Assembly (NCBI GenBank): GCA_905233955.1
Contig: CAJOFQ010000002.1
Coordinates: 68,594 to 132,593, forward strand
DNA: 64,000 nt
Reading direction: 5' to 3'
Source: an uncultured Lachnospiraceae bacterium
GTDB lineage: Bacteria; Bacillota; Clostridia; Lachnospirales; Lachnospiraceae
Shown here: piece after piece, positions 4,220 to 60,132 of the stretch
How the letters are laid out: the number at the start of each line of letters is the position of its first letter
Numbering within the stretch: position 1 is the stretch's first letter
The notes under the pieces: model-generated
Seen by the model: the letters and a program-made list of their open reading frames with translations, nothing else
Told to the model about the DNA's origin: nothing
Databases searched by the model: none
Program-made: the position numbers and the translations under genes

Positions 4220-7200
4220 TTATATGCTTGCTATATCCACAAGTGTAAACCTGTCAGGCTCACTTTCCAGGCATGTGGCAAGAGCATTGGCGGTATCCAT
4301 GGCCGTAATACAATACACCCCTGTTTCAATGGCGTTTCGCCTGATCAGAAAACCGTCCCTGGTCTTGTCTCCATGTCCCTGGGTAGGTGTATCTATAACC
4401 AGATCTATCTTGTGCCCTAAAATCAGATCCATTACATTAGGAGATTCCTGAGTGATCTTATTGACCCAAAGAGCGTCAATCCCCCTCTCCTGCAAATATT
4501 TTGCAGTAGATCTGGTGGCATAAATCTTGTAGCCTAAAGCCTTGAATCTCTTAGCCACATCCACTGCCTCAGGCTTGTCTGCGTCCTTAACAGTAAGTAT
4601 CATCTGCTTGTATTTTGGAAGCACTACTCCCGCTCCCAAAAAGGCCTTGTACAAGGCTTCGGTAAAGTTGTCAGCAATTCCCAGGCACTCACCGGTGGAT
4701 TTCATCTCAGGCCCAAGAGATATCTCGGCACCTCTTAGTTTTTCGAAGGAAAAAACAGGCATTTTGACTGCGATATAGTCACTTTCCTTTGCAAGCCCCG
4801 GCTCATAGCCCAGCTCTCTTATGGTATGTCCCAGCATTACCTTTGCCGCCAGATCAACTATGGGTATACCTGTAACCTTGCTGATATAAGGCACTGTACG
4901 GGAAGACCTGGGATTGACCTCTATCACATATACCTTGTCATCCATTACAATGAACTGAATATTGATCATACCCTTGACATGCAGCGCCTCTGCAAGCCTG
5001 GCCGTATAATCCGCCAGGGTTTTCTTAACCTCTTCAGAAATTGACTGGGCAGGATAAACAGAAATCGAATCTCCCGAGTGAACTCCGGTACGCTCAATAT
5101 GCTCCATTATTCCGGGAATAAGAATATCAGTACCGTCACATACCGCGTCAACCTCGATTTCCTTGCCCTGAAGATACTTATCAACCAATATAGGATGATC
5201 CTGGGTCGTTCTGTTAATAACCTCCATAAACTGCTCTATATCGGAATCGTCCCAGGCAATCTGCATCCCCTGTCCGCCAAGCACATAGGAAGGGCGTACC
5301 AGAACCGGATATCCTAGCCGGTTAGCTACGGTACGAGCTTGAGCAGTGGTAAATACTGTATCCCCTGCTGCCCTTGGAATCCTTGTTTTTTCCAGTATCT
5401 CATCAAACAGCTCCCTGTCCTCGGCCGCATCCACATCCTCAGCCCTGGTCCCAAGAATAGGTACTCCCATTCGCATCAGGCTTTCAGTAAGCTTGATGGC
5501 AGTCTGTCCCCCAAACTGCACCACTGCCCCGTCAGGCTGCTCCATGTTTACAACATTTTCCACATCCTCAGGGGTAAGGGGCTCGAAATACAGCTTGTCT
5601 GCAATATCAAAATCAGTTGAAACGGTTTCAGGATTATTATTAATTATAATGGTTTCAAAGCCCTCTTTGGCAAAGGCCCATGTGGCGTGAACGGAACAAT
5701 AATCGAATTCTATTCCCTGTCCGATACGAATAGGCCCCGAACCAAGTACAAGGATCTTTTTGGTGTCGTTGCTCCTTGTGGCTTCATTTTCCCTGTTATA
5801 AACTGAGTAATAGTACGGAGTAGATGCTTCAAATTCGGCAGCACAGGTATCAACCATCAAAAATACTGCTTCTATGCCGTATCTCCTTCTCATATCCCGG
5901 ATCTGTTCTGTTTTTCGACCCGTAAGGGCGGCAATGGTACTGTCCGGAAACTGAAGTCTCTTTGCCTCGGCTAAAAGCTCTTCGTCGAGCTCATCTCTCT
6001 TAAGCCTTTCCTCCATCTCCACCAATATAGCTATCTTATCTATAAACCAGCGGTCAATGGATGTGATCTCAAAAAGCTCGTCTATGCTCATACCACGGCG
6101 AAGAGCCTCTGCTATACGATAAATCCTAAGATCGTCAACAAGCTCAAGCTCTTTTTTTAACCTGTAGTCCGAAAGACCGGAAAAATCCACAGAACGCAGG
6201 GATTCAACATTCTGTTCGAGAGATCTTATTGCCTTCATCAGCGCGCCTTCAAAGCTGTCACATATGCTCATAACCTCCCCGGTTGCCTTCATCTGGGTGG
6301 TCAGAGTTCTCTTGGCTGTAATGAATTTGTCAAAAGGAAGCCTTGGAATCTTGACTACACAGTAGTCCAGCATTGGTTCAAAGGAAGCGTATGTCTTTTT
6401 AGTTATCGCATTAGGAATCTCATCTAAGGTATATCCCAAGGCAATTTTTGCTGCTACCTTTGCAATAGGATAACCTGTGGCCTTGGAAGCCAGGGCCGAC
6501 GAGCGGCTGACTCTGGGATTGACTTCTATAACGCAGTATTCAAAAGAATCAGGATTCAGAGCGTATTGAACATTACAGCCTCCGGTAATTCCAAGCTCAG
6601 AAATAATATTAAGCGCGGAAGATCTTAGCATCTGATATTCCTTGTCGGAAAGAGTCTGAGATGGAGCAACTACTATTGAGTCACCTGTATGAACACCTAC
6701 CGGATCGATATTTTCCATGTTACAGACTGTAATACAGTTTCCGGCACTGTCACGCATTACCTCATATTCAATTTCCTTCCAGCCGGCAATACACCTTTCT
6801 ACCAGAACCTCATGAACCCTTGATAATCTAAGTCCATTCTCCAGTATCGCTCTTAGCTCATTTTCATCATTGGCTATTCCGCCGCCGCTTCCTCCAAGCG
6901 TATAGGCAGGACGGAGTACAACAGGATAGCCTATGGTATTGGTAAAACGGACGCCATCATCTACATTGTTAACCACCTTGCTGGCAGCTATTGGCTCTCC
7001 GATCCTCTCCATGGTGTCTTTGAATTCCTGACGATCCTCAGCCTTTTTTATTGTGGATGCCGTAGTTCCTATCAATCTTACATTATGCTTTGCCAGAAAT
7101 CCGGATTCTTCCAGTTCCATTCCAAGGTTCAGTCCCGCCTGTCCTCCCAGTGTAGGAAGCAGACAATCCGGCTTTTCTTTTTCAATGATCTGTTCTAAAA

Positions 7201-7417
7201 GGCGGATCGTAAGGGGCTCAATATATACAGCATCGGCGATCTCTTTATCCGTCATAATGGTTGCAGGGTTAGAATTAACAAGTACAACCGTAACTCCCTC
7301 TTCCTTTAATGAACGACAAGCCTGGGTACCGGCGTAATCAAATTCCGCTGCCTGTCCAATTACAATTGGGCCTGAGCCTATCACCATAACTTTTTTAATA
7401 TCTGCTCTTTTAGGCAT
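4220..7417 (-). CDS. carB: Carbamoyl-phosphate synthase large subunit
   Basis: Makes carbamoyl phosphate from bicarbonate, ammonia delivered by CarA, and two ATP, for pyrimidine and arginine synthesis. The 1,065 residues match the full-length family: two homologous halves, each opening with a nucleotide-binding start (VMVIGSGPIVIGQAAEFDYAG and VLGSGPIRIGQGIEFDY) and an ATP-grasp fold (VEVNPRVSRSSALASKATG, VIEVNPRSSRTVPYISKVTG), then a C-terminal allosteric MGS-like domain. Its start overlaps carA by 8 bases, so the subunits are coupled. A second full-length carB lies at 52728-55946 without its own carA. No PyrR-type attenuator was seen. Confidence 0.97.
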   Translation of the reverse strand: MPKRADIKKVMVIGSGPIVIGQAAEFDYAGTQACRSLKEEGVTVVLVNSNPATIMTDKEIADAVYIEPLTIRLLEQIIEKEKPDCLLPTLGGQAGLNLGMELEESGFLAKHNVRLIGTTASTIKKAEDRQEFKDTMERIGEPIAASKVVNNVDDGVRFTNTIGYPVVLRPAYTLGGSGGGIANDENELRAILENGLRLSRVHEVLVERCIAGWKEIEYEVMRDSAGNCITVCNMENIDPVGVHTGDSIVVAPSQTLSDKEYQMLRSSALNIISELGITGGCNVQYALNPDSFEYCVIEVNPRVSRSSALASKATGYPIAKVAAKIALGYTLDEIPNAITKKTYASFEPMLDYCVVKIPRLPFDKFITAKRTLTTQMKATGEVMSICDSFEGALMKAIRSLEQNVESLRSVDFSGLSDYRLKKELELVDDLRIYRIAEALRRGMSIDELFEITSIDRWFIDKIAILVEMEERLKRDELDEELLAEAKRLQFPDSTIAALTGRKTEQIRDMRRRYGIEAVFLMVDTCAAEFEASTPYYYSVYNRENEATRSNDTKKILVLGSGPIRIGQGIEFDYCSVHATWAFAKEGFETIIINNNPETVSTDFDIADKLYFEPLTPEDVENVVNMEQPDGAVVQFGGQTAIKLTESLMRMGVPILGTRAEDVDAAEDRELFDEILEKTRIPRAAGDTVFTTAQARTVANRLGYPVLVRPSYVLGGQGMQIAWDDSDIEQFMEVINRTTQDHPILVDKYLQGKEIEVDAVCDGTDILIPGIMEHIERTGVHSGDSISVYPAQSISEEVKKTLADYTARLAEALHVKGMINIQFIVMDDKVYVIEVNPRSSRTVPYISKVTGIPIVDLAAKVMLGHTIRELGYEPGLAKESDYIAVKMPVFSFEKLRGAEISLGPEMKSTGECLGIADNFTEALYKAFLGAGVVLPKYKQMILTVKDADKPEAVDVAKRFKALGYKIYATRSTAKYLQERGIDALWVNKITQESPNVMDLILGHKIDLVIDTPTQGHGDKTRDGFLIRRNAIETGVYCITAMDTANALATCLESEPDRFTLVDIASI

Positions 7418-28346: not shown

Positions 28347-28375
28347 ATTATATCTATACACAAAAATCTCGTCAA
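28347..28375 (-). promoter_or_regulatory. Promoter of pheS-pheT-queA
   Basis: TTGACG, 17 bases, TATAAT on the minus strand, within the 79 bases between the MoxR gene and pheS. The transcript would start about 27 bases before the pheS ATG. That leaves no room for a T-box leader, which commonly controls this operon in Firmicutes. Confidence 0.75.
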
Positions 28376-28392
28376 GCAAGCTTATATATGCA

Positions 28393-29727
28393 TTATTCCA
28401 AAACCTTAAGATCTGCAATCTCTTTTCTGATGCTGCTATACTCCTGATCCAGCATTAAAATTTTAGAGTATTTGTTATATGATTCACTGGAACACTCGGC
28501 CAGATACTCCTTTGCATAAGGATCCCTGCCAATTGAAGTCAAAAACAGCAGCATTTCCTGTCCTTCTCCAAATGTCTTGTCCAGGAACAAAAAGGCATTT
28601 TCGAGCATGTCTCCTGTCAGATCAATTTCTTCCTGGCGCCTGTCTTCAAGACTGTCAAAATGTTCCTTTTCCCTGGCAAAATCATCACTGCTAAGTGATT
28701 CCTTTTGAGCCTTAAGAGTGGATAAAAGATTCTCCTGCGCCTGCCTTTCCTCATGGTAAGAATAAAATCTGTTACCCAGAGCATCACTTAATAAATGCAA
28801 AAATGACAGCTTCTCATCAAACGGGGCGTTTGTTATTTCATCTCCTCCCTGTCTATATGAGCCCTTTAATATATCGCCTACAGCAAATCTGGTATTATAT
28901 TTCTGATACAGTCTGTAATAATCAAAAAAAGCAGCCGCAATCTGTGTATCCTCAACATATTCGCTGATAAGATACTCTGTAACCGGATAGCTGTTTCTCT
29001 CGTATGCTTTTAGCATTTCAGAAAGATCCTCCCAGCTTCTGGCTGTTACAAAGGATGTCTCATTCACATCGGCACTGATACGATAGAAATAATCCTTCTT
29101 GATATCCAAAAAAGCCCTTATTGCATCATGTAATCTGGCCTTTACTGCGTATTCAAAAAACACATTTATATCTATGTCAATATCCAGTCTTCTGACACGA
29201 TCCAGGGTTACTATGTCAAAATCCCTGGCTGCCCTGTTATAGCTTGGGGGATTTCCGGCACAGGCAATAACAAAGCCTCTTGGTACTTTGTGAGTTCCAA
29301 ATGTCTTGTATTGCAAAAACTGAAGCATTGTGGGCAAAAGGGTTTCAGATACACAGTTTATCTCATCCAAAAACAATATTCCCTCAGAAATTCCAGTCTC
29401 CTCTATGCTCTTATATACCGACGCAAGTATCTCGCTCATGGTATATTCTGTTACCGAATAAGGCTTGCCGTCAAAGGTAACCTCCCTTACTACAGGAAGA
29501 CCAATTGCGCTTTGCCTGGTATGATGGGTTATGGTGTAGGAAACAAGATTGATGCCCATTTCAGAAGCTATCTGGCTCATTACCGCAGTCTTGCCTATAC
29601 CCGGTGCTCCCATCAGCAGCAGCGGTCTGCAAAACCGTTCATCAAGAATATAGTTACCTGATTCATCCTTCCCAAGATACGCGCTTATTGCGTGCTTTAT
29701 TTCTTCTTTTGCCTGACTTATGTTCAT
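28393..29727 (-). CDS. MoxR-family AAA+ ATPase
   Basis: 444 residues from MNISQAKEEIKHA (29727, preceded by AAGAGG); the longer ORF-track start overlaps the upstream gene. It carries a Walker A (LLMGAPGIGKTAVMS), a Walker B (GILFLDEINCVSETLL), a sensor-1 region (GFVIACAGNPP) and an arginine-finger region (TLDRVRRLDIDID), as in MoxR chaperone-like ATPases. The C-terminal half is helical and not recognised. MoxR proteins usually work with VWA-domain partners to insert cofactors or remodel complexes, and the next gene upstream encodes one. The client is unknown. Confidence 0.88.
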   Translation of the reverse strand: MNISQAKEEIKHAISAYLGKDESGNYILDERFCRPLLLMGAPGIGKTAVMSQIASEMGINLVSYTITHHTRQSAIGLPVVREVTFDGKPYSVTEYTMSEILASVYKSIEETGISEGILFLDEINCVSETLLPTMLQFLQYKTFGTHKVPRGFVIACAGNPPSYNRAARDFDIVTLDRVRRLDIDIDINVFFEYAVKARLHDAIRAFLDIKKDYFYRISADVNETSFVTARSWEDLSEMLKAYERNSYPVTEYLISEYVEDTQIAAAFFDYYRLYQKYNTRFAVGDILKGSYRQGGDEITNAPFDEKLSFLHLLSDALGNRFYSYHEERQAQENLLSTLKAQKESLSSDDFAREKEHFDSLEDRRQEEIDLTGDMLENAFLFLDKTFGEGQEMLLFLTSIGRDPYAKEYLAECSSESYNKYSKILMLDQEYSSIRKEIADLKVLE

Positions 29728-29741
29728 ATTATTATGCCTCT

Positions 29742-31076
29742 TTACAGATACACCTTTACTGCCCATGACGGCACATTGGTATCATCGTAATCCTCGTCCT
29801 CTATGAAAATAAAGGCTGTATCATAATCTGTTGCTTTTGTGGGGTAAATTCCGTATCCATCAGTAAAATATAAAAGAGCTGAAAGCCCGGGCAAGCCTCC
29901 TTTTTTCCTTAGATCATCCACATAGGAAAAAACCGGTCTGAAATCCGTCCCATATCCGCCTGAAACGGTAAAATCTCTGGCATATTCTTCTATCTGCCCG
30001 GGTTTGGTCAGTTCTATATCCCTTTGAACATGCTCATCACATTCTATTATGTGCAGATTGACACTTTCAAAAAAATACTCTGACTGGCGAAGAATAGCGA
30101 CTGTCTCATTCAAGAATCTGATCACATGCTTCCTTCTGGTGGAAGCCGATGTGTCAATAGCTATGATCAAAGTAAAAATCCGTTTTTCTTCTCTTCCCTC
30201 AAGTTCCTCTATCAGGGGCATGTCCCCATACATCTTCATGCCATACTGATAGTAGGCTATGTCAAAATACTCCGGATCTATCCTGCATACTTCCCTTGGA
30301 ATCATGTATTTCTCAAGCAGCTTATGATAGTCTCTGTGCGCCGTGTGCCTTAGCTTAAGATTCCAGGTGAGCCTGCCGCTGTCTGACATGGCCTTAGCAC
30401 CTGAAAGCTCTACCTCAGAGTTTATTGCATTTGCGGCCTTCTCCCATATCTCCTTTAGAGGAAGATTACAAAAGGGAGCCAATTGAAAATCATTTTCTAT
30501 TTCATTACTGTCATCATCATTATCCCGCCTCATCCAGAAGGAGTGATCATCCATGCAAAATTCATCTTTTAGCTTCAACCAATCATCACCATAGGGCGGA
30601 TGCTCTTTGAAATATCTGTAGATTCCGGTGTCCGTAAGAGATCTTATCTCATTTGAAAGGGTTTTGTACCATTTTTCACGAAAATCACTTGTGACCATAC
30701 GCATACAATCCATATCCATTGAATCAATAATTGACTCAACGGATATCTCACAGGCAAGCTGCCACAATTCCTCATCATCCTCATTGTCAAAGGAAAAAGC
30801 CCGATAAAAAGGATGCATCAGCAGATTGTGGAGAAGCATATGCATATATATGCGGTTTAATCTTGTCGGAAAATTCAGATATATCTCACTTAGAAACCTT
30901 GTATTATAGCGGATAGATACTCCATCTGTTCCAACTGTGAAGGTATTTTGATCCATAGCCTCTGACAGAGTACCCATAGCTCTGGCAAGATACGGCATAC
31001 TTAGATATAATTCTCTTTTTACCGCCGAAAGAATCCGGCTTCCGAGAGTGATAAGTGTGTCCTTAGTTTTTTTCAT
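29742..31076 (-). CDS. VWA-like domain protein (DUF2201 type)
   Basis: 444 residues. The N-terminal half resembles the metallopeptidase-like region of the DUF2201 family; a helix with spaced histidines (YMHMLLHNLLMHPF) stands where other members have HExxH, but the Glu is missing. The C-terminal half is a von Willebrand A-like domain with a MIDAS-type DTSAS motif (TLIIAIDTSASTRRK) and a GGYGTDFRPVF segment matching the second metal loop. It overlaps the upstream unknown gene by 4 bases and precedes the MoxR ATPase by 14 bases. The three genes therefore form a coupled unit. Confidence 0.82.
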   Translation of the reverse strand: MKKTKDTLITLGSRILSAVKRELYLSMPYLARAMGTLSEAMDQNTFTVGTDGVSIRYNTRFLSEIYLNFPTRLNRIYMHMLLHNLLMHPFYRAFSFDNEDDEELWQLACEISVESIIDSMDMDCMRMVTSDFREKWYKTLSNEIRSLTDTGIYRYFKEHPPYGDDWLKLKDEFCMDDHSFWMRRDNDDDSNEIENDFQLAPFCNLPLKEIWEKAANAINSEVELSGAKAMSDSGRLTWNLKLRHTAHRDYHKLLEKYMIPREVCRIDPEYFDIAYYQYGMKMYGDMPLIEELEGREEKRIFTLIIAIDTSASTRRKHVIRFLNETVAILRQSEYFFESVNLHIIECDEHVQRDIELTKPGQIEEYARDFTVSGGYGTDFRPVFSYVDDLRKKGGLPGLSALLYFTDGYGIYPTKATDYDTAFIFIEDEDYDDTNVPSWAVKVYL

Positions 31077-31795
31077 AGCTGCAAAGAAAGCCTTGTCCGT
31101 TTACGGGCAGCGTATTTAAGCAGCAAAGCCACAGTCTGGGCGTCCTTAGTCTCTGACAGGCAGTTAAGAGCCTCTAATGCACTTTGCCTGGATAGTAACC
31201 CGTTTTTTATCATAAAATCAACTTCACCTGATATATCCCTGTCCTGATCTATCAGCTCCTTTATAACCATAGCATCATTATCTCTGATAAAATCTTCGTA
31301 AACAACTCTATGATTATCCAGCATCTGTACGGGAAATCTCAGCCTGCAAAGAGACATCCTTGCAGCATCACTGATATCCTGATCAACCACATGCAAAAAC
31401 TGCCTGTCATATTCACGCAAATTAAGCTGATATTTGCCAACACACTCTCTGCAGACATATCCGCTGCCCTCTATCTTGTGATGGATAGCCCTGGCAAAGG
31501 TATCCTCCACAAACCCATACAAGTAATCAGGAAAATACAACGACATCACCGTATCATCTTCGGATATAATATCAACTGACAGCGCTGTCTCATGATCCTG
31601 CAAAAAGGCCCTTAACAACGCAAAATCGCCCTTTGCAATTCCATTCGAAAAGGCCGGCCTAACATCAGAGTCTGTGTATTGAATTTGAAGCCTTACTATG
31701 GAGGAATAGCGTTTTGCAACTCCTGCATAGTAGTCCTCAAGGGTGTTTGAGAGATTTTTCAGCTTGTGATTCCTGTCAAAACCAATACATACCAT
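31073..31795 (-). CDS. Uncharacterised protein of the MoxR-VWA cassette
   Basis: 240 residues, not recognised. It has a mixed N-terminal part, one CxxC pair (YVCRECVGKYQ, about residue 117), and a helical C-terminal third (SRQSALEALNCLSETKDAQT) that looks like a helical-repeat scaffold. There is no signal peptide or membrane segment. The ATG at 31795 has no clear ribosome site, but there is no good alternative. Its stop overlaps the VWA gene (ATGA) and it lies 15 bases after the amylase gene. An adaptor or substrate-recognition role for the MoxR-VWA pair is inference. Confidence 0.7.
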   Translation of the reverse strand: MVCIGFDRNHKLKNLSNTLEDYYAGVAKRYSSIVRLQIQYTDSDVRPAFSNGIAKGDFALLRAFLQDHETALSVDIISEDDTVMSLYFPDYLYGFVEDTFARAIHHKIEGSGYVCRECVGKYQLNLREYDRQFLHVVDQDISDAARMSLCRLRFPVQMLDNHRVVYEDFIRDNDAMVIKELIDQDRDISGEVDFMIKNGLLSRQSALEALNCLSETKDAQTVALLLKYAARKRTRLSLQL

Positions 31796-31810: not shown

Positions 31811-33118
31811 TTAGTAAGGACAAAGCACATAAGCTCTGTGAGCTTCTACTTCAAGCCCTCCGCCAAAATCAACCGTTTCACCAGTAATAAGATCCCTGGC
31901 TCTGCCTGCCTGGGCGTCAAAATGGAATACATACGGTGCGTCATCAATGTTTATGGCCACCATAACACGACCATCACCAAAACGCCTTTGGAATATGCAG
32001 TGCTTATTCTCTAATACAAGCGAAGAAAAATCTCCTTGGCTGAGGGCCTCTGTTTCTTTTTTAGCCCTCGACAGTGCTGCTATTGTATCACAAAGCGGCG
32101 TCCACCGGGGCTCTTCGATCCTGGGTCTTAATGCATTATCTCCCTGTGACTTGTCGCCTCGAATTCCCCACTCACTTCCGTAGTATATGCAAGGGATCCC
32201 CGGCATTGTATACATAAGTGTATAGGCTATGGCAAGATTCCTCTCATCGTTGAGATTGGAGGCTATCCTGGTTACATCGTGATTATCTACAAAGGATATA
32301 AGATGCGCACCCTTGTACAGCGTCCATTGCTCCGGTCCAAACTGCCTCATAAGGGAATGAATTATTTCAAATAAATTACCACTGTTTATGGCAGAAAAAA
32401 TACCTTTGAAGCATTCATAATTAGTGGCCGAATGACACATTTCGTCATTCATGATCTGTTTGTAATCACCGCCTAAAATCTCCCCAAACAGGAAGAAATC
32501 CTTCTTCCAGGAAGATGTCTGTGCTCTTAATCTCTTTAGAAAATCACGATTGACCATATAAGCCACATCAAGCCTCAGGCCATCAATGTCAAATGTGTCT
32601 ATCCAGTATTTGACACTGTCCATCAGGTAATCACACACTGCCGGGTTGTTCAGATTGAACTTGACCAGATCGTAATTACCTTCCCAGCCCTCGTACCACA
32701 ATCCGTCATTGTATGAATTATTGCCGTCAAAGCTTATATTAAACCAGTCCCGGTAGGCTGAATTCTCGCGGTTAACAAGCACATCCTCAAATGCAAAAAA
32801 GCCCCTTCCGGCGTGATTGAACACACCATCCAGCATAACCTTAAAGCCCTCTTTGTGAAGCTTGGCACAAATATCGGCAAAATCTTCATTGCTGCCCAGG
32901 CGGACATCCACCTTACGATAATCCCTGGTGTTATATCCATGAGTATCAGATTCAAAAAGCGGATTGAATAAAACTGTATCTACTCCCAGCTTCTTAAGAT
33001 GGGGTATCCAACGGGATATTTCGTTGATCCTGTGAGTTAGAACCCCATCATTCTCATATGGAGCCCCGCACAATCCCAAGGGATATATCTGATATATAAC
33101 GCTGTTATCTGACCACAT
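31811..33118 (-). CDS. GH13 alpha-amylase family glycoside hydrolase, cytoplasmic
   Basis: 435 residues with the GH13 barrel regions: region I DGVFNHAG, region II GLRLDVAY (nucleophile Asp), region III LFGEILGG (acid/base Glu) and region IV FVDNHDVTR. It lacks a signal peptide and membrane anchor, so it acts inside the cell on imported maltodextrins or glycogen. The short N-terminal lead before the barrel and the compact C-terminal beta domain fit a cyclomaltodextrinase/neopullulanase-like or maltodextrin-degrading enzyme, but the specificity is not readable. The ribosome site is AAAGGAGAT. A terminator lies between it and mecA. Confidence 0.9.
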   Translation of the reverse strand: MWSDNSVIYQIYPLGLCGAPYENDGVLTHRINEISRWIPHLKKLGVDTVLFNPLFESDTHGYNTRDYRKVDVRLGSNEDFADICAKLHKEGFKVMLDGVFNHAGRGFFAFEDVLVNRENSAYRDWFNISFDGNNSYNDGLWYEGWEGNYDLVKFNLNNPAVCDYLMDSVKYWIDTFDIDGLRLDVAYMVNRDFLKRLRAQTSSWKKDFFLFGEILGGDYKQIMNDEMCHSATNYECFKGIFSAINSGNLFEIIHSLMRQFGPEQWTLYKGAHLISFVDNHDVTRIASNLNDERNLAIAYTLMYTMPGIPCIYYGSEWGIRGDKSQGDNALRPRIEEPRWTPLCDTIAALSRAKKETEALSQGDFSSLVLENKHCIFQRRFGDGRVMVAINIDDAPYVFHFDAQAGRARDLITGETVDFGGGLEVEAHRAYVLCPY

Positions 33119-33135: not shown

Positions 33136-33170
33136 AAAAATATAAAACCCCTATACTAAGGGTATAGGGG
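33136..33170 (-). terminator. Terminator after mecA
   Basis: A 9-bp stem CCCCTATAC / GTATAGGGG with a 5-base loop, followed on the minus strand by TTTTATATTTTTT. It lies about 57 bases after the mecA stop and only 18 bases before the amylase start. Amylase expression would therefore need readthrough or a promoter overlapping this hairpin. Confidence 0.82.
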
Positions 33171-33227
33171 CAATAAAAACCTCAAAAAACAAAGTTCATC
33201 AAAAAGCCACTAACAATACTATACAGC

Positions 33228-33905
33228 CTACAAATTCTGTAACTGCAGCAGGGCATCGGATTTGATCATACGAATGGCATGCTCCTCAACACCATAGGTT
33301 GAAGGACCTGAAGCATACATATTGTCTGAATACTCGGCAATGGTGAAAACACTGTGAGCTAACTGCTTCTTAGTCTGATGCAATTCTATGATCAGATAGT
33401 AGGTATCATGATATTTGAGCAGACGCGATGGTGCTCCTGGCATATCTACTGACTTGGCAAGCCTGATACAATCATCCAGATTAGAAAACTCCGCCCAAAT
33501 CTCCATGTCGGTGATCTCATCATCTGAAGTTCCCTCCAGAACCTCCTTGGCAGGATCCAGAGCCAAAGCGTTCTGTGCCTTCATCTTGCCTTGCTCAATA
33601 GCCTGCTGGAATTCCTTAAGGCGTTCCTTGAATTGAGCCAGCATAGCATGAATCGCTGCATTCTGGTCGTCAGAGATCATCAGTGATACATCTCCGTCCT
33701 TCATAACGGTGAGCTGAACATTGAGAGCCTCTCCGGTAGTCTCAAAATCCACCTCGTATCTTGCCTGCTGAAGAATATAGCGCAAAAACTCCTCAGCCTT
33801 GACACGATCTCCCATAAGCTCATCCAAATCTATACCCTGTGCGTTCATCTCTTCACGGCTTATAATGCACTGGATTGAATTATCATTAATCTTAGTAAAT
33901 TTCAA
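33228..33905 (-). CDS. mecA: Adaptor protein MecA
   Basis: ClpC adaptor that targets proteins for degradation (competence and other regulators in B. subtilis). I start it at the TTG at 33905 (LKFTKINDNSIQCIISREEM), preceded by AGGGGTGA six bases upstream. That matches where MecA proteins begin (MKIEKIN...TISREDL), so the ORF-track start 18 codons earlier is unlikely. The 225 residues comprise the N-terminal substrate-binding domain (AQGIDLDELMG), an acidic/Gln-rich linker and the C-terminal ClpC-binding domain (FSNLDDCIRLAKSV). It has its own promoter and a ~100-base leader containing a short ORF. Confidence 0.9.
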   Translation of the reverse strand: MKFTKINDNSIQCIISREEMNAQGIDLDELMGDRVKAEEFLRYILQQARYEVDFETTGEALNVQLTVMKDGDVSLMISDDQNAAIHAMLAQFKERLKEFQQAIEQGKMKAQNALALDPAKEVLEGTSDDEITDMEIWAEFSNLDDCIRLAKSVDMPGAPSRLLKYHDTYYLIIELHQTKKQLAHSVFTIAEYSDNMYASGPSTYGVEEHAIRMIKSDALLQLQNL

Positions 33906-33909
33906 ATTA

Positions 33910-34002
33910 TCACCCCTGAAAAAACATGCGGTATAACAGAGAAAAATTCGAGTCCGCACCCGGCGGAAATGGCACCGGATTTACGACCGCTTTAGAATAC
34001 AT
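33910..34002 (-). CDS. Possible upstream ORF / leader peptide of mecA (30 aa)
   Basis: A 30-codon ORF in the mecA leader, starting ATGTATTCTAAAG with GGTGGAG just before it and ending in TGA TAA, with the TGA lying inside the mecA ribosome site. The peptide includes NPVPFPPGAD. Pro-Pro-Gly is a classic EF-P-dependent ribosome pausing motif, so a translation-coupling or attenuation role is conceivable. It is not in the ORF track. The coding nature is unproven; the leader could simply be structured RNA (TCCGC/GCGGA hairpin). Confidence 0.35.
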   Translation of the reverse strand: MYSKAVVNPVPFPPGADSNFSLLYRMFFQG

Positions 34003-34469: not shown

Positions 34470-34511
34470 AAAATATGTATGATCCCTCATATAACTCAGG
34501 CTTTATGAGGG
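34470..34511 (-). terminator. Terminator overlapping the FIST-GGDEF stop
   Basis: An 8-bp stem CCCTCATA / TATGAGGG with a 12-base loop that begins within the last codons and stop of the FIST-GGDEF gene, followed after ten bases by ATTTTTG on the minus strand. The T-run is delayed, so efficiency is uncertain. Confidence 0.5.
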
Positions 34512-36308
34512 TTTTGGATTATGCCTTTCCTCACCAACTACTATACGATTCCTGCCAGTCTCCTTGGCTTCATACAATGCATTATCTACACGGGTGTATA
34601 TAGCCTTTTTGTCCTCGGCTCCTGTAACAACAGTAACTCCAAGACTGCAGGTAAGTCTGTGGATCTTAGGGAAGGGGTACATCTCAACAGTCTGCCTGAT
34701 CTCTTCTGCGCGCTCTAATGCCTGCTCCAGAGTAACTCCGGGCAGCAGCATAAAGAATTCTTCGCCGCCCCAGCGTCCAACTGCCTCTCCCTCATATTCC
34801 CGGACTGTAGCATTTAATACCGCCGCCACTCCTTCGAGAATCTTATCTCCTGTTTCATGTCCACAGGTGTCATTAACACGCTTAAAATGATCAACATCAA
34901 TCATTACCAGAGAAACCACGCCTCCATTTTCTGCCACATCATCCAAAGCTACATTAATGCGTCTTTCTATTTCCCGTCTGTTGTACAAAGCTGTCAGCTC
35001 ATCAACAGTTGCCATATGAAGCAGCTTCTCATTAGCCTCAGTAAGGTCCGAAAGGCTCTGTCTAAGCTCGTCTGATGTAGCCTTGATGAGAGTTGTAAGT
35101 CTCTTGACAAGTGAAGTCTGACCATGCATAGCGGTAGTGTCAACTGATACCCTGGGTATATCCCGACCCGTCTTTGGGCCCTCGCGCATCGCAATAGTAA
35201 GCATAGTAATATTATGCCACATAATATGACCCGTATCATGATCACGATTCAATTCACCGCCCGTACAAAAACCACATGATGTGGCTATCTTCTGGAATGG
35301 CGCCATCTCATTATTGATGAAATAATTCCAGAAAATCTTGCGCATAGCACAGCTGTAAATAAGTATGGCCTCCGGCTCAAACTTTCGAACCTCTTCTGCC
35401 CTGGCGTCAACCTCCGCAACTATCGCTATAGGATCACCATACGACATGGTAACCTTCATGCCATTATGAATATAACCCGCAAGCTCCAAAGCACCCTCAG
35501 TTCCGGTAACAGAACAGTGCCTTAGCATGGTCATCCCCTCATCCTCCACCAACAAAGGAAATTCCATGGAATTCTCAATAAAGTGACCATCATCTTCGAT
35601 ATCAAGATAACGGCGATACAGCTCCATGGCAGATATATCATCTACACAGTATAAGGTATTCTTACTGGCTTTTGTAACTGTAAATGTACGCCCTAATGGC
35701 TCCCATCCAGCAGTATGTCCCACATCAATATGGAAATCACTGCCGGCATATGTAATCAAGGCAAGGGCGTTGTCAAACACACCACCCTCTGTAACAATGA
35801 AACGGCGTCCTCCCTCAAGTATATGACTGATTGGATATCCTCCGAAAATCTTTACATCCCTGCTGCACTTGTCCAGCGAATGTAAAAAAGTCAGGTTATC
35901 CACCGGAGCGCCCTGAATCAGAATCTCCGCAGCCTTAATATCCGGTGTATCATCTATGATACGCCTGGCCTGATCACCTGTCTCAGCTTCATGATCCAGT
36001 ACATCGGGAAAGAAAAAGACCCTGACATCAGTGGTCTTAAACATCATCGCGGAAAGCAGTATCACCGGATCAGTAAGGGCACCGTTAATAATCTCTGCAT
36101 TAGAAGAAATCCCGCAAAACTCACAGAAGGGAAACTCCCTGTACAGCCTGTCCCTTATGGTTAGAATCCATCCCTCCTCATCTATTCCACAATATATGTG
36201 AAATAGCAGTGATTTCGCCTCTCCAAATACCTCAAGCTCCTTCCTTATAGCGTCAACTGAAGCAGAAAGAGCATCATCATTATATATTTCGTACAAAAAC
36301 TGTCTCAT
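34503..36308 (-). CDS. FIST-domain sensor with C-terminal GGDEF (diguanylate cyclase)
   Basis: 601 residues. The N-terminal ~390 residues match the FIST/FIST_C sensory fold (FIST-type strands FHIYCGIDEEGW, CGISSNAEI, the FIST_C region FEPEAILIYSCAMRKIFW and CGFCTGGE near the end), thought to bind small ligands such as amino acids. A short helical linker follows, then a GGDEF domain with an intact active site in the GGEEF form (VGRWGGEEFFMLLPG) and DVDHFKRVNDTCGHETGD. No membrane segment is seen, so it should sense a cytoplasmic signal and make c-di-GMP. The ribosome site is AGAGGAG. It is a single-gene unit. Confidence 0.87.
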   Translation of the reverse strand: MRQFLYEIYNDDALSASVDAIRKELEVFGEAKSLLFHIYCGIDEEGWILTIRDRLYREFPFCEFCGISSNAEIINGALTDPVILLSAMMFKTTDVRVFFFPDVLDHEAETGDQARRIIDDTPDIKAAEILIQGAPVDNLTFLHSLDKCSRDVKIFGGYPISHILEGGRRFIVTEGGVFDNALALITYAGSDFHIDVGHTAGWEPLGRTFTVTKASKNTLYCVDDISAMELYRRYLDIEDDGHFIENSMEFPLLVEDEGMTMLRHCSVTGTEGALELAGYIHNGMKVTMSYGDPIAIVAEVDARAEEVRKFEPEAILIYSCAMRKIFWNYFINNEMAPFQKIATSCGFCTGGELNRDHDTGHIMWHNITMLTIAMREGPKTGRDIPRVSVDTTAMHGQTSLVKRLTTLIKATSDELRQSLSDLTEANEKLLHMATVDELTALYNRREIERRINVALDDVAENGGVVSLVMIDVDHFKRVNDTCGHETGDKILEGVAAVLNATVREYEGEAVGRWGGEEFFMLLPGVTLEQALERAEEIRQTVEMYPFPKIHRLTCSLGVTVVTGAEDKKAIYTRVDNALYEAKETGRNRIVVGEERHNPKPS

Positions 36309-52727: not shown

Positions 52728-55700
52728 CTATAATTCCTGAAGAGAGTGAATCTGACCGTTACCGTGTTCCTTTAATTCATGAATGCCCTCTGCTGCAGCC
52801 ATGGCTCCGGCAACAGTTGTAATATATGGTATACGGGCTCTGATCGCAGCTCGCCTTACATAAGCGTCATCATGACCTGTACCCTTGCCGATGGGAGAAT
52901 TAATAACCAATGACACCTGACGATTAGTGATTACATCCTCGACATTTGGACGCCCTTCATAATTCTTTAAAACCCGCTTTACAGGAATTCCGGCATTTTC
53001 TATTGTTGCAGCCGTCTGCCCTGTAGCAAAAATCTTAAAGCCATCATCATGGAAGCTTTTTGCTATGGCAGCAGAATAGGGTCTGTCCTGCTCGTTAACT
53101 GAGATAAGTACTGATCCTTCAAGCGGAAGCTTGGAACCGGCTGCTTCCTGTGCCTTGTAAAATGCTTCGCCTGTAGATGTGGCAAGACCAAGCACTTCTC
53201 CCGTAGAACGCATCTCCGGTCCCAAAAGAGGGTCAACCTCAGGGAACATGGAAAACGGGAATACAGCTTCTTTAACACCATAGAACAAAGGCTTTTTGCC
53301 GTCAAACCTCAATTTCAGATCTGATACGGGTGATTCCTTGCCAGTAAGGGATGATGTTATTATCTCAGTAGCAATTGGAACCATCCTGATTCCGCAGACC
53401 TTGGAAACCAAAGGCACTGTACGGGATGCTCTGGGGTTGGCCTCCAAAACATATACTGTGTCATTTTCTATGGCATACTGAATATTCATAAGTCCCACTA
53501 CATTGAGCTCCACAGCTATCTGTCTGGTGTATTTCCTTATGGTATCAAGATGATCCTGTGAAATATGCTTAGATGGAACTATACAAGCCGAATCGCCTGA
53601 ATGTATACCAGCCAGTTCTATGTGCTCCATAACTGCCGGAACAAAGGCGTCCTGCCCGTCAGATATGGCGTCGGCCTCACATTCTACAGCATTCTGCAGA
53701 AAACGGTCAATCAGAATCGGTCGATCCGGTGTTACGCCAATTGCATCACGCATATATGAATCCATGCTCTCTTCACTGCGGACAATCTCCATTCCCCGGC
53801 CTCCGAGTACGAAGGAAGGTCTTACCATTACCGGATAACCGATTTCTGCCGCAACAGCCTTGGCTTCCTCTACAGTGGATGCCATACCTGACTGGGCCAT
53901 AGGAATGTTAAGCTGATCCATCATTTTCCTGAACAGGTCACGATCCTCCGCCAGGTCAATAACCTCAGGCTGTGTTCCCAGTATTTTTACTCCCTCTTCT
54001 TTAAGCTTTGAGGAAAGATTAAGCGGCGTCTGACCCCCGAACTGGGCAATAATACCTACAGGCTTTTCCTCGCGATATATCTGCAGTACATCCTCCAAGG
54101 TAAGGGGTTCAAAATACAGCTTATCTGATGTATCGTAATCTGTTGAAACAGTTTCAGGGTTGCAATTAATTATTATTGTCTCAAAACCCAGCTTCTTCAG
54201 CGCCAAAGACGCGTGAACACAGCAGTAATCGAATTCTATTCCCTGCCCTATACGGTTTGGTCCGCCTCCAAGGATTAAAACCTTGTTCTTTTTTTCAGAT
54301 ATCGGGTTATTGCCTTTTTTGCAGTAGGTTGAATAGTAATATGCACTGTCCAAAGTCCCATATACATGAACGCCATCCCAGCTCTCTAAAATATCAGATT
54401 CCTCGCGCTTTGCTCTTATTTCGTCCTCTGATACTCCAAGAAGCTTGGCCAGATAAAGGTCTGAAAAACCGTTTTTCTTGGCATTCTTAAGAGCTTCAGT
54501 ATCCGGAACCGTCCCTTTAAATCTGTCTATCAGGGATTCTTCCTCCTCAACCAGTTCCTTCATCTGGGTCAGGAAATAAGACTTAATGCCGGTCTTGTCA
54601 AAAATTTCTTCAACACTGACTCCCTTGCGAAGAGCTTCATAAATCAAAAAATATCTCTCGCTGGAAGCATTCTGTATCATCTGCATCAGTTCTTTTGCTG
54701 ATAGCCTGTCGTATCCGTTAACATATCCAAGACCATATCTGTCCTTCTCAAGAGAACGGATAGCCTTCTGGAATGCTTCTTTGAAGTTCTGCCCTATACT
54801 CATTACTTCGCCCACAGCGCGCATCTGTGTGCCAAGCTTATCCTCAACTCCGTCAAACTTCTCAAATGCCCATCTGGCAAATTTTACTACAACATAATCC
54901 CCGTTTGGAACATATTTATCCAGCGTACCAAAACGACTGTCAGAAATATCTGACAACAAAAGTCCTGCAGCAAGCTTAGCTGAGACAAGAGCTATCGGAA
55001 AGCCTGTGGCCTTGGAAGCAAGTGCTGATGAACGGGAAGTCCTGGGGTTAATCTCTATTACTACCACCCGATCACTCTTGGGATCATGGGCAAATTGAAC
55101 ATTAGTACCTCCAATAACTCCTATGTGTTCTACAATCCTGTACGCCTGATCCTGAAGCTCCTTCTGAAGATCCTGTGAAATCGTAAGCATGGGTGCCGTA
55201 CAGAATGAATCTCCTGTGTGAACTCCTACCGGATCAACATTCTCGATGAAGCACACCGTTATCATGTTGTTGGCACTGTCCCTGACAACCTCCAGCTCCA
55301 GCTCTTCCCATCCCAGAATAGATTCTTCCACCAGAACCTGATGTATAAGTGAAGCCTGCAAGCCCCTTTCACATACCACCTTCAATTCATCTCTGTTGTA
55401 TACCAGTCCGCCTCCTGCACCGCCCATTGTATATGCAGGTCTTAACACTACAGGATATCCCAGCTCGTCTGCTTCTTCCAAAGCTTCATCGACACTATAG
55501 CATGCCTTGCTTTTTGCCATAGCAATTCCCAGGCTGTCCATAGTCCGTTTGAATTCGGTCCGATCCTCTCCCCGTTCGATGGCATCTACATCAACGCCTA
55601 TAACCTTGACATTATATTTTTCCAGAATTCCTGCCTTGTACAGCTCAGAGCACAAATTAAGACCCGATTGTCCTCCCAGGTTAGGAAGAAGGGCCCGGGG

Positions 55701-55946
55701 TCTTTCCTTCTCTATTACCGCTGTAACCCTTTCAACATTCAAGGGCTCAATATATGTATGATCCGCCATTTCAGGATCCGTCATTATGGTCGCAGGATTG
55801 GAGTTGACTAAAACTATTTCATAACCCAGACTCCGCAGTGCTTTGCATGCCTGGGTTCCTGAGTAGTCAAATTCGCAGGCCTGACCTATGACAATTGGTC
55901 CGGATCCGATAATCAGTACTTTTTTCTTTTCTCCTTTTTGAGACAT
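52728..55946 (-). CDS. carB: Carbamoyl-phosphate synthase large subunit, second copy
   Basis: A complete 1,072-residue CarB with both ATP-grasp halves (VLIIGSGPIVIGQACEFDYSG, VLILGGGPNRIGQGIEFDY; VIEINPRTSRSSALASKATG, VLEANPRASRTVPLVSKVCG) and the MGS-like regulatory domain (GFKIFATGQTAATIENAGI). It differs throughout from the 4.2-7.4 kb copy. There is no carA next to it. It heads a run of amino-acid genes, so an arginine-linked function beside a pyrimidine-linked carAB is a reasonable inference. No clear promoter was found in the 119 bases upstream. Confidence 0.95.
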   Translation of the reverse strand: MSQKGEKKKVLIIGSGPIVIGQACEFDYSGTQACKALRSLGYEIVLVNSNPATIMTDPEMADHTYIEPLNVERVTAVIEKERPRALLPNLGGQSGLNLCSELYKAGILEKYNVKVIGVDVDAIERGEDRTEFKRTMDSLGIAMAKSKACYSVDEALEEADELGYPVVLRPAYTMGGAGGGLVYNRDELKVVCERGLQASLIHQVLVEESILGWEELELEVVRDSANNMITVCFIENVDPVGVHTGDSFCTAPMLTISQDLQKELQDQAYRIVEHIGVIGGTNVQFAHDPKSDRVVVIEINPRTSRSSALASKATGFPIALVSAKLAAGLLLSDISDSRFGTLDKYVPNGDYVVVKFARWAFEKFDGVEDKLGTQMRAVGEVMSIGQNFKEAFQKAIRSLEKDRYGLGYVNGYDRLSAKELMQMIQNASSERYFLIYEALRKGVSVEEIFDKTGIKSYFLTQMKELVEEEESLIDRFKGTVPDTEALKNAKKNGFSDLYLAKLLGVSEDEIRAKREESDILESWDGVHVYGTLDSAYYYSTYCKKGNNPISEKKNKVLILGGGPNRIGQGIEFDYCCVHASLALKKLGFETIIINCNPETVSTDYDTSDKLYFEPLTLEDVLQIYREEKPVGIIAQFGGQTPLNLSSKLKEEGVKILGTQPEVIDLAEDRDLFRKMMDQLNIPMAQSGMASTVEEAKAVAAEIGYPVMVRPSFVLGGRGMEIVRSEESMDSYMRDAIGVTPDRPILIDRFLQNAVECEADAISDGQDAFVPAVMEHIELAGIHSGDSACIVPSKHISQDHLDTIRKYTRQIAVELNVVGLMNIQYAIENDTVYVLEANPRASRTVPLVSKVCGIRMVPIATEIITSSLTGKESPVSDLKLRFDGKKPLFYGVKEAVFPFSMFPEVDPLLGPEMRSTGEVLGLATSTGEAFYKAQEAAGSKLPLEGSVLISVNEQDRPYSAAIAKSFHDDGFKIFATGQTAATIENAGIPVKRVLKNYEGRPNVEDVITNRQVSLVINSPIGKGTGHDDAYVRRAAIRARIPYITTVAGAMAAAEGIHELKEHGNGQIHSLQEL

Positions 55947-58382: not shown

Positions 58383-58412
58383 TTGCACTACCACGATAAT
58401 TTGTATTATAAT
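58383..58412 (+). promoter_or_regulatory. Promoter of the diguanylate cyclase gene
   Basis: TTGCAC, 18 bases, TATAAT on the plus strand. The ORF-track ATG at 58411 lies inside this -10 box, which supports the ATG at 58465 as the real start. It is back to back with the cheV promoter. Confidence 0.65.
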
Positions 58413-58464
58413 GGGAGCGTTAAATCATTATTTATCTGGCAAAGTTTACGGGACGGTTTGGTAT

Positions 58465-60132
58465 ATGAGAACAAAATTATTATCAACCTGTGTAGTTTTA
58501 TCCTTATTTTTGATTCTGCTTGGCGGCACTGTATATGCCGCACCTTCCAAAGATCATCAGAGTGATCCATTTCGCATACTCTTTATTGCCTCATATAACT
58601 ATTCCTATTCCACAGTTCCCCTTCAGCTTAGCGGCTTTAGAGAGGGTCTTGGAGGAATGTCATACGATATCGACTATGAGTTCATGGATTCCAAGAATTT
58701 CTACCATCCTGACGATTTGCAGGAGTTTTACACTTTTGTTAATTACAAGATCTCTCATTCCGACCCATATGATCTGGTTGTGGTATCCGATGATAATGCT
58801 CTCAGATTCTGGAAGAATTACCGCAATAAATTATTCCCTGACACACCGACCGTGTTCCTGGGTATTAACAATTACACTGACGCAAAGGCTGCTGATTCAA
58901 TGGATGAGGTGACCGGTATAGCTGAAGTATTCGATTACATATCCAGCTTTGATCTTATGCGTTCATTGTTCCCGAACCGCAATCATGTTGTCGCTGTTGT
59001 CGACGGGTCCATCACTGCCCGAGGTGAGTATGCACTGTTCCAGGATGCTTCCTCACAATATCCACAGCTTACATATTCTGTACTAAATACCGTGGATTAC
59101 TCTGAATCAGGGTTGATAGAAGCTCTCAAGAAGCTTGGTGATAATGATATAATCCTGTACCTGGACTTTTTAGAGGACGGAGATGGCAATATCTATACCG
59201 AGCGCACAGCTTCCTCTCTTCTTGCAGACAATGCCCCCAATGTTCCCATAATGCGTGTCTCTACCGCGAATGTTGAGCGGGGAGTTTTTGGCGGTATTGT
59301 ATATTCTCATTATGATGCAGGTGTCCTGGCAGGCGAGATGACTGCCAAGATTGCAAAGGGTACTCCCCTGGGCGACATCCCTATGGTTGATCACCCTATT
59401 ACCACAGCTATTTTTGATCAGAATGCCCTGGATCATTTTGGGATTTCAATAAGGGAGCTTCCCACAAACTCCACTATTCTCCACGAACATCCTTCGCTGA
59501 TCAAATTTTACAAAGAGAATACTATGCTTGCTAACCTGATTCTGCTTGTAATATTGATGATGATTGTCATCATAGCCATCCTCATAATCAATAATCAGCG
59601 CAGAGAAAAGTTAATCAAGCAGGACTTCCTGACACAGATGCCGAATCGGCTGTATATCAATTCCAAGATCCAGCAGACAATAGACAGACATGAGCCATTT
59701 GGACTGTTAATGATGGATGTAGACCACTTCAAGAACATTAACGATACCCTGGGGCATCCTATAGGCGACGAGCTTCTCATAAGTGTCGCCAAGAGGTTAA
59801 AACAGCAGAGCTCCAGCCAGCTTATTATCGCCCGTATCGGTGGTGATGAGTTTAATGCTCTTTTGCTTGGCAAGAGCGTAGGTCACGCGGATGAAATTTG
59901 CCAGCGTATCCTGGAATCAGTAAAGGAAGAATACAACCTGTCCAGCGGTCCTCTTAACATTACAGCCAGCTTGGGCTGTGCGCTTTACCCCCATCATACC
60001 GATGATCCAACCCGGGTTATGAGCTACGCTGATGCTGCTCTTTACGAAGTAAAAGAGCGTGGCAGAAACGGCTATCAGCTGTTCCATCCCACGCTCGCAA
60101 AGCACCTTAAGCATTCAGATTATCATGTTTGA
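58465..60132 (+). CDS. Membrane diguanylate cyclase with periplasmic binding-protein-like sensor
   Basis: 555 residues from MRTKLLSTCVVLSL (58465). In order: a signal peptide/anchor ending near VYAAPS; an extracytoplasmic ~330-residue domain resembling the ABC-type substrate-binding fold (FRILFIASYNYSYSTVPLQLSGF, YDLVVVSDDNALRFW, VFLGINNYTD); a membrane helix (LANLILLVILMMIVIIAILII); and a GGDEF domain with intact RIGGDEFNALLL and DVDHFKNINDTLGHPIGD. It should make c-di-GMP in response to an external ligand. It ends immediately against the stop of the sugar-binding lipoprotein gene, with zero bases between. Confidence 0.88.
   Translation: MRTKLLSTCVVLSLFLILLGGTVYAAPSKDHQSDPFRILFIASYNYSYSTVPLQLSGFREGLGGMSYDIDYEFMDSKNFYHPDDLQEFYTFVNYKISHSDPYDLVVVSDDNALRFWKNYRNKLFPDTPTVFLGINNYTDAKAADSMDEVTGIAEVFDYISSFDLMRSLFPNRNHVVAVVDGSITARGEYALFQDASSQYPQLTYSVLNTVDYSESGLIEALKKLGDNDIILYLDFLEDGDGNIYTERTASSLLADNAPNVPIMRVSTANVERGVFGGIVYSHYDAGVLAGEMTAKIAKGTPLGDIPMVDHPITTAIFDQNALDHFGISIRELPTNSTILHEHPSLIKFYKENTMLANLILLVILMMIVIIAILIINNQRREKLIKQDFLTQMPNRLYINSKIQQTIDRHEPFGLLMMDVDHFKNINDTLGHPIGDELLISVAKRLKQQSSSQLIIARIGGDEFNALLLGKSVGHADEICQRILESVKEEYNLSSGPLNITASLGCALYPHHTDDPTRVMSYADAALYEVKERGRNGYQLFHPTLAKHLKHSDYHV

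Follow-up and report, generated by a model that had tools for sequence, protein, structure and literature searches.

Several described systems pair a ring of the MoxR-type AAA+ ATPase with a partner that carries a von Willebrand factor A (VWA) domain and its metal-ion-dependent adhesion site (MIDAS). NorQ/NorD, CbbQ/CbbO and RavA/ViaA are of this kind, and the N-terminal domain of the VWA partner is thought to set their specificity (PMC9976466, PMC3893208). In NorQ/NorD the VWA domain plugs the MoxR hexamer with the MIDAS facing the client, while the N-terminal domain gives specificity; the authors of that work extend the plug model to MoxR/VWA pairs generally, as a proposal (PMC9976466). The MoxR-vWA ternary conflict systems (VMAP, iSTAND, FtsH and beta-propeller) combine an AAA+ MoxR and a vWA protein with a third conserved protein (Kaur et al. 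2020, PMC7159879). Here we examine a three-gene cassette in a stretch of 64,000 nucleotides from an uncultured Lachnospiraceae bacterium (contig CAJOFQ010000002.1, positions 68,594 to 132,593 of the forward strand), which we refer to as the window. The cassette encodes a MoxR ATPase, a VWA protein and a third protein, ORF3, whose relatives carry leucine-rich repeats (LRR). With a probability of roughly 60%, we read it as a remodelling machine of the MoxR AAA+ type whose client adaptor is an LRR-type protein.

A preliminary description of this DNA had placed a three-gene unit at 28393 to 31795, and the open reading frames (ORFs) of the window agree, with all three cassette ORFs on the minus strand:

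31073..31795, minus strand: ORF3, the third component (240 aa), corresponding to the C-domain of the putative LRR-type adaptor family, with the LRR array down to about one degenerate repeat
29742..31076, minus strand: VWA protein (444 aa), with a DUF2201_N pseudo-metallopeptidase domain and a DUF2201 VWA domain
28393..29727, minus strand: MoxR-type AAA+ ATPase (444 aa from the conserved ATG), assigned from its motifs and Pfam matches

ORF3 and the VWA gene overlap by 4 bases (ATGA). At its longest the MoxR ORF begins at 29766. The ATG at 29727, however, corresponds to the conserved start (MNIxxAKxEI), and with this start the gap between the VWA and MoxR genes is exactly 14 nt, so that both the overlap and the gap given in the preliminary description hold.

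The third protein and its association with VWA and MoxR

ORF3 alone has no match in Pfam, NCBIfam or the PDB, and in this respect its first characterization as an unrecognized protein was correct for the window copy. It was not correct for the family. The homologues from other genera usually measure 290-390 aa (about 1,180 aa in the longest, L312) and consist of an N-terminal LRR_5 array, with a repeat number that varies widely across lineages, followed by a conserved C-domain. LRR_5 was matched in 39 of the 40 aligned members, the sole exception being the window ORF3 itself, and the notion that ORF3 is an orphan was therefore rejected. In a profile-profile alignment (hhalign), residues 6-228 of ORF3 align to the last LRR repeat and the C-domain of the LRR-bearing family with a probability of 97.6%. 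The LRR array has thus been lost in the window's genus, except perhaps for one degenerate repeat. Judging from these comparisons, the third gene encodes a shortened version of an LRR protein built of BspA-type LRR_5 repeats and a new C-terminal domain. Two parts of ORF3 are of importance below:

31673..31780, minus strand: ORF3 residues ~6-41, tentative remnant of the last LRR_5 repeat (hhalign; pLDDT 51-68 over residues 1-30)
31076..31420, minus strand: ORF3 residues 126-240, helical subdomain and smallest conserved unit, which elsewhere is found alone upstream of the VWA gene or fused to it

Residues G110, G112, D130, R151 and P155 are invariant in the C-domain. The CxxC motif that had been pointed out in ORF3 is not a feature of the family: C118 alone is conserved, and beyond the close relatives position 115 is mostly Tyr. 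A metal site at this motif was rejected because it keeps only one conserved Cys. The AlphaFold model of ORF3 (pLDDT 87, pTM 0.85) has a beta module followed by a helix bundle. Foldseek found no solved structure in the PDB at E<=0.001, and no entry of BFVD either; weak hits to BubCD, Ctf4 and ankyrin were discounted as evidence, and the idea that the C-terminal half holds ankyrin or another known kind of repeat was rejected on the grounds that Pfam gave no match and Foldseek nothing at that threshold. Inspection by eye, with no signal-peptide program, revealed no hydrophobic N-terminal stretch that could serve as a secretion signal in ORF3 or in the relatives inspected.

In order to determine how closely the third gene is tied to the VWA-MoxR pair, we searched 250 Lachnospiraceae genomes with a C-domain profile and a cassette-VWA profile. 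Plain LRR proteins dominated the hits of our initial profile (A1) when the class was searched, and the C-domain alone (A2) was used thereafter; a closer subset profile (A3) was used to scan genome contigs. The C-domain was found in 111 genomes and the cassette VWA in 131, or about half of the sample, with carriers that include Coprococcus comes, Anaerostipes hominis, Faecalicatena contorta and Blautia parvula. Both were present in 110 genomes: cassette VWA occurs in 110 of the 111 genomes with the C-domain versus 21 of the 139 without a C-domain match (Fisher p ~8e-48). The third gene thus belongs with MoxR-VWA, as had been supposed at the outset. The possibility that it is often encoded apart from the pair was checked directly and was not borne out. 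All 87 genomes with strong C-domain matches also carry cassette VWA, and among the 88 strong C-domain places there are about 82 with a VWA gene within ~7 kb, 3 at contig ends and 3 that are truly apart (G545, G636 and G663), each with VWA elsewhere in the same genome. Among the first 25 relatives with ORF3, the VWA gene adjoins in 24.

The reverse search gave a similar picture. Some 124 of the 131 VWA-bearing genomes have a third component, because 14 of the 21 VWA-only genomes were found to encode an LRR or C protein beside the pair or fused to it. A nearby third component is absent in G046, G057, G183, G495 and G579 and uncertain in G625; in G669 the gene is cut short by the contig. The figure of 144 out of 154 obtained for the cassette-VWA set comes from loci mostly found through the third gene, so that the genome-level figure, which starts from the VWA search, is the unbiased one.

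Gene order and gene fusions bear on the roles of the two parts of the third protein. Across 120 loci and the window, 89 places have the order C-VWA-MoxR on one strand and 4 have VWA-MoxR-C; in L329 the LRR gene lies between VWA and MoxR. One locus (L289, 3937-7348) carries two third-component genes, one on either side of VWA. Seven ORFs are fusions in which the helical portion of the C-domain is attached to the VWA N-terminus, and in some loci lone helical parts of 102-146 aa are encoded directly upstream of VWA. From these fusions and lone parts, the helical subdomain is the constant part of the third protein, and the LRR array the variable one. Two long ORFs were noted. A single 935-aa ORF (L238, 1857-4664, in G648) joins C-subdomain, VWA and MoxR, the MoxR portion being without its Walker A part, and looks like a decayed or mis-assembled triple fusion. 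In L133 (170-3676, in G624) a 1168-aa ORF has peptidase-like sequence in frame with C-subdomain and VWA.

Conserved residues of the VWA protein and the ATPase

The window VWA protein matches DUF2201 (8e-10, 39.3 bits, cut-off 26.4) and DUF2201_N (3e-6, 27.3 bits, cut-off 23.2), and most cassette VWAs have a length of about 430-515 aa. Its overall structural model is of low confidence (pTM 0.54), and only the VWA fold was matched to a known structure. Motifs of the VWA and MoxR proteins map to the window as follows:

30813..30842, minus strand: H79-MLL-H83-NLLM-H88, degenerate HExxH (Glu80 to Met) with invariant His residues
30141..30155, minus strand: MIDAS DxSxS, D308-T-S-A-S312; T377 and D406 complete the site (invariant columns in alignment A4)
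29587..29610, minus strand: Walker A GAPGIGKT of MoxR, residues 40-47 (invariant Gly, Lys and Thr in alignment A8)

The preliminary description had proposed that the metallopeptidase-like region has lost the Glu of HExxH, and position 80 is indeed Met in the window. Glu is found at this position in only 2 of the 154 cassette-type VWAs, while H79, H83 and H88 are present in all 153 members of this set that could be aligned, D110 in 148 of 154 and E114 in 147 of 154; the window protein has E110 in place of D110. Invariant His residues and a nearly invariant D110/E114 in the absence of Glu suggest that the N-terminal domain is probably a metal-binding pseudo-peptidase, in which the metal site would be kept without hydrolysis. 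The two members with Glu are L181 (8957-10318) and L304 (4252-5676), the latter also without a third component and possibly an intermediate form. In the VWA domain D308, S310, S312, T377 and D406 are invariant.

The assignment of the ATPase to MoxR with a VWA partner was likewise supported by motifs and Pfam. AAA (4.7e-8) and AAA_5 (2e-7) both scored above their cut-offs; AAA_3 (E=0.023) and bpMoxR (22.9 bits), the matches that bear on a named MoxR subfamily, were below theirs. The Walker A residues G40-T47, the Walker B pair D121-E122, N159 and R177 are invariant in 17 members, and we take N159 to be the sensor 1 Asn and R177 the Arg finger.

Proposed function and alternative explanations

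We propose that the products of the three genes form a single AAA+ remodelling machine in the cytosol. In it, MoxR would act as an ATP-driven ring, and the VWA protein would plug this ring and grip the client through its MIDAS, a mechanism that we infer from NorQ/NorD; the N-terminal pseudo-metallopeptidase domain would bind metal without cutting. The seven fusions of helical subdomain and VWA N-terminus suggest where the third protein could dock: its helical C-terminal subdomain would contact the N-terminal part of VWA, and in most species the LRR array would present a client or a signal. In the window's genus, with the LRR eroded, ORF3 might be a bare adaptor, or contact with the client might have moved to the beta module. 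The preliminary description had guessed that the third protein is a client adaptor. Linkage and fusions fit this guess, and the adaptor role itself is what we consider likely rather than observed.

Several points weigh against this proposal. The third protein does not appear to be absolutely required, given that 6 or 7 of the 131 VWA genomes have no third component nearby. No structure in the PDB matches the C-domain, which leaves fusions and gene order as the basis for its putative docking role. Of the seven fusions, two (L238 and L239) look degenerate and are without parts of MoxR or VWA, and the L133 fusion continues in frame into the upstream peptidase-like ORF.

The main competing explanation, which we regard as unlikely, is a conflict or immunity system in which the LRR protein would recognize a product of the invader, with MoxR-VWA as an NTP-dependent switch, as proposed for the VMAP, iSTAND, FtsH and beta-propeller ternary systems. 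The logic of MoxR, vWA and a distinct third protein is the same (PMC7159879), LRR is a classic recognition scaffold, the repeat number differs widely between lineages, and the presence of the cassette in the Lachnospiraceae sample is patchy. Against this, Pfam detects only DUF2201_N and DUF2201 in the window VWA and no fused effector domain, and PADLOC gave nothing beyond weak hits, so that a link to defence was rejected. The chromosomal flanks are varied, with no defence-island pattern: the most frequent flanking family is present at 16 of 103 loci, 338 of the 443 flank clusters have a single member, and recurring flanking genes include HAD, ssb, rpsF and folate-like ones. The cassette VWA is absent from the plasmid collection searched, and its matches in IMG/VR are distant (22-39% identity), on which grounds a mobile element was rejected. 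In 16 close pairs the dN/dS values of all three genes are well below 1 (most 0.05-0.29), the third protein being generally the fastest; the three genes are under purifying selection, and positive selection was not seen. The cassette is chromosomal, with variable neighbours and without a defence or mobile signature. Ten records of a phage collection match VWA. The best five (MT837836.1, MT839739.1, MT837937.1, MT835935.1 and MT836813.1) are short unannotated fecal 'Bacteriophage sp.' contigs of 4-15 kb that carry cassette-type VWA genes at 38-63% identity, and they may be mislabelled bacterial DNA.

It is about as improbable that the cassette is a maturation factor dedicated to one enzyme, for cofactor insertion or reactivation in the manner of NorQ/NorD or CbbQ/CbbO, and that the LRR protein does no more than tune it. 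Those MoxR-VWA pairs whose jobs are known belong to this type (PMC9976466; PMC3893208), but the variable flanks mean that no enzyme gene travels with the cassette, although a constant client could be encoded elsewhere. That VWA is an active metallopeptidase and the cassette a regulated protease seems very improbable. The metal-ligand-like residues H79, H83 and D110/E114 are almost invariant, and in most canonical DUF2201 proteins within the same family HExxH persists, yet the catalytic Glu is nearly always missing from the cassette members. We can hardly credit the idea that chance alone has kept an unrelated third gene beside the pair: the window ORF3 has no recognizable domain of its own, but the co-occurrence statistics, the fusions and the several positions of the gene relative to the pair refute it.

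Returning to the remodelling machine with an LRR-type adaptor, such a system would add a third, separately encoded recognition subunit to the MoxR-VWA mechanism, and it would provide a functional context for a DUF, for the new C-domain and for cytosolic BspA-type LRR proteins. Natural fusions, short forms and an LRR-less genus make docking and recognition roles separable. We suggest, more tentatively, that this may be a class of MoxR-VWA ternary machine not described before: a cytosolic LRR receptor, docked on a metal-binding pseudo-peptidase, would tell the AAA+ ring which protein to remodel, possibly as an intracellular LRR surveillance switch.

Genomic context and comparison with known systems

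Transcription on the minus strand of the window runs in the order mecA, GH13 amylase, ORF3, VWA, MoxR and pheS/pheT, and the cassette begins 15 nt downstream of the GH13 gene. The surrounding features are:

33228-33959, minus strand: mecA
33147..33171, minus strand: hairpin resembling a terminator, between mecA and the GH13 gene (match to consensus only)
31811-33118, minus strand: GH13 amylase
28347..28375, minus strand: promoter-like site just before pheS, TTGACG-17-TATAAT, separating pheS from the cassette (consensus match only)

Because of the terminator-like hairpin before the amylase gene and the promoter-like site before pheS, the amylase and the cassette may form one transcription unit in the window. 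The amylase was rejected as a part of the system, being adjacent in only some members of the window's genus. MecA, which is known as an adaptor protein of an AAA+ protease, is encoded two genes upstream of the cassette, with the terminator-like site in between. Elsewhere in the window we observed two full-length carbamoyl-phosphate synthase large chains within 64 kb (4220-7417 and 52728-55946), a FIST sensor domain fused to GGDEF (34503-36308) and another GGDEF protein (58411-60132).

The cassette occurs mainly in Lachnospiraceae. A class-wide sample of 391 genomes gave strong cassette-VWA scores in 24, of which 13 belong to Lachnospiraceae and the rest to eight other families, and a phylum sample gave one strong match outside the class (G862), beside an LRR and C protein of 1,177 aa.

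Literature searches on DUF2201, COG3864 and MoxR with LRR returned nothing relevant, and the trio is not described in the literature searched; within that literature, the earlier impression that the function is undescribed stands. The text of PMC7159879 does not mention Lachnospiraceae or DUF2201, and LRR appears there in a reference title only. What is new here is the recognition of the third gene as an LRR-protein remnant, its near-obligate association with the pair, the fusions and the pseudo-peptidase pattern.

Closest to the cassette are the canonical MoxR-DUF2201 pairs of the same bacteria (L254-L257, L101, L102, L108 and L110), which likewise have a MoxR-type AAA+ gene beside a VWA gene with DUF2201_N and DUF2201. 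They differ in gene order, with MoxR preceding VWA, in having no C-domain protein, and in mostly keeping HExxH intact (HEVMH, HEIMH, HEYLH), although L254 is without Glu. The cassette-VWA profile gives these proteins ~20-90 bits versus ~280-720 for cassette members, and by this measure the cassette VWAs are a distinct group within DUF2201. The LRR region of the relatives of ORF3 matches solved structures of BspA-type LRR_5 proteins (4fs7, 4gt6 and 4h09), but no solved protein has the C-domain, and the cassette relatives show no signal peptide and have their gene tied to VWA-MoxR. Relative to the systems of Kaur et al., the third proteins of the cassette match only LRR families confidently in Pfam, with no convincing PDB match for the C-domain, and no VMAP, iSTAND, FtsH or beta-propeller protein was recognized among them, although a direct comparison with VMAP-C alignments was not part of the analysis; the third protein is instead LRR_5 plus a new C-domain, and the VWA protein carries a DUF2201_N pseudo-peptidase and no detected effector. 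NorQ/NorD, CbbQ/CbbO and RavA/ViaA, finally, are two-part systems with known or proposed clients, whereas the cassette has a separate third protein as its putative adaptor and an N-terminal VWA-partner domain that is derived from a metallopeptidase.

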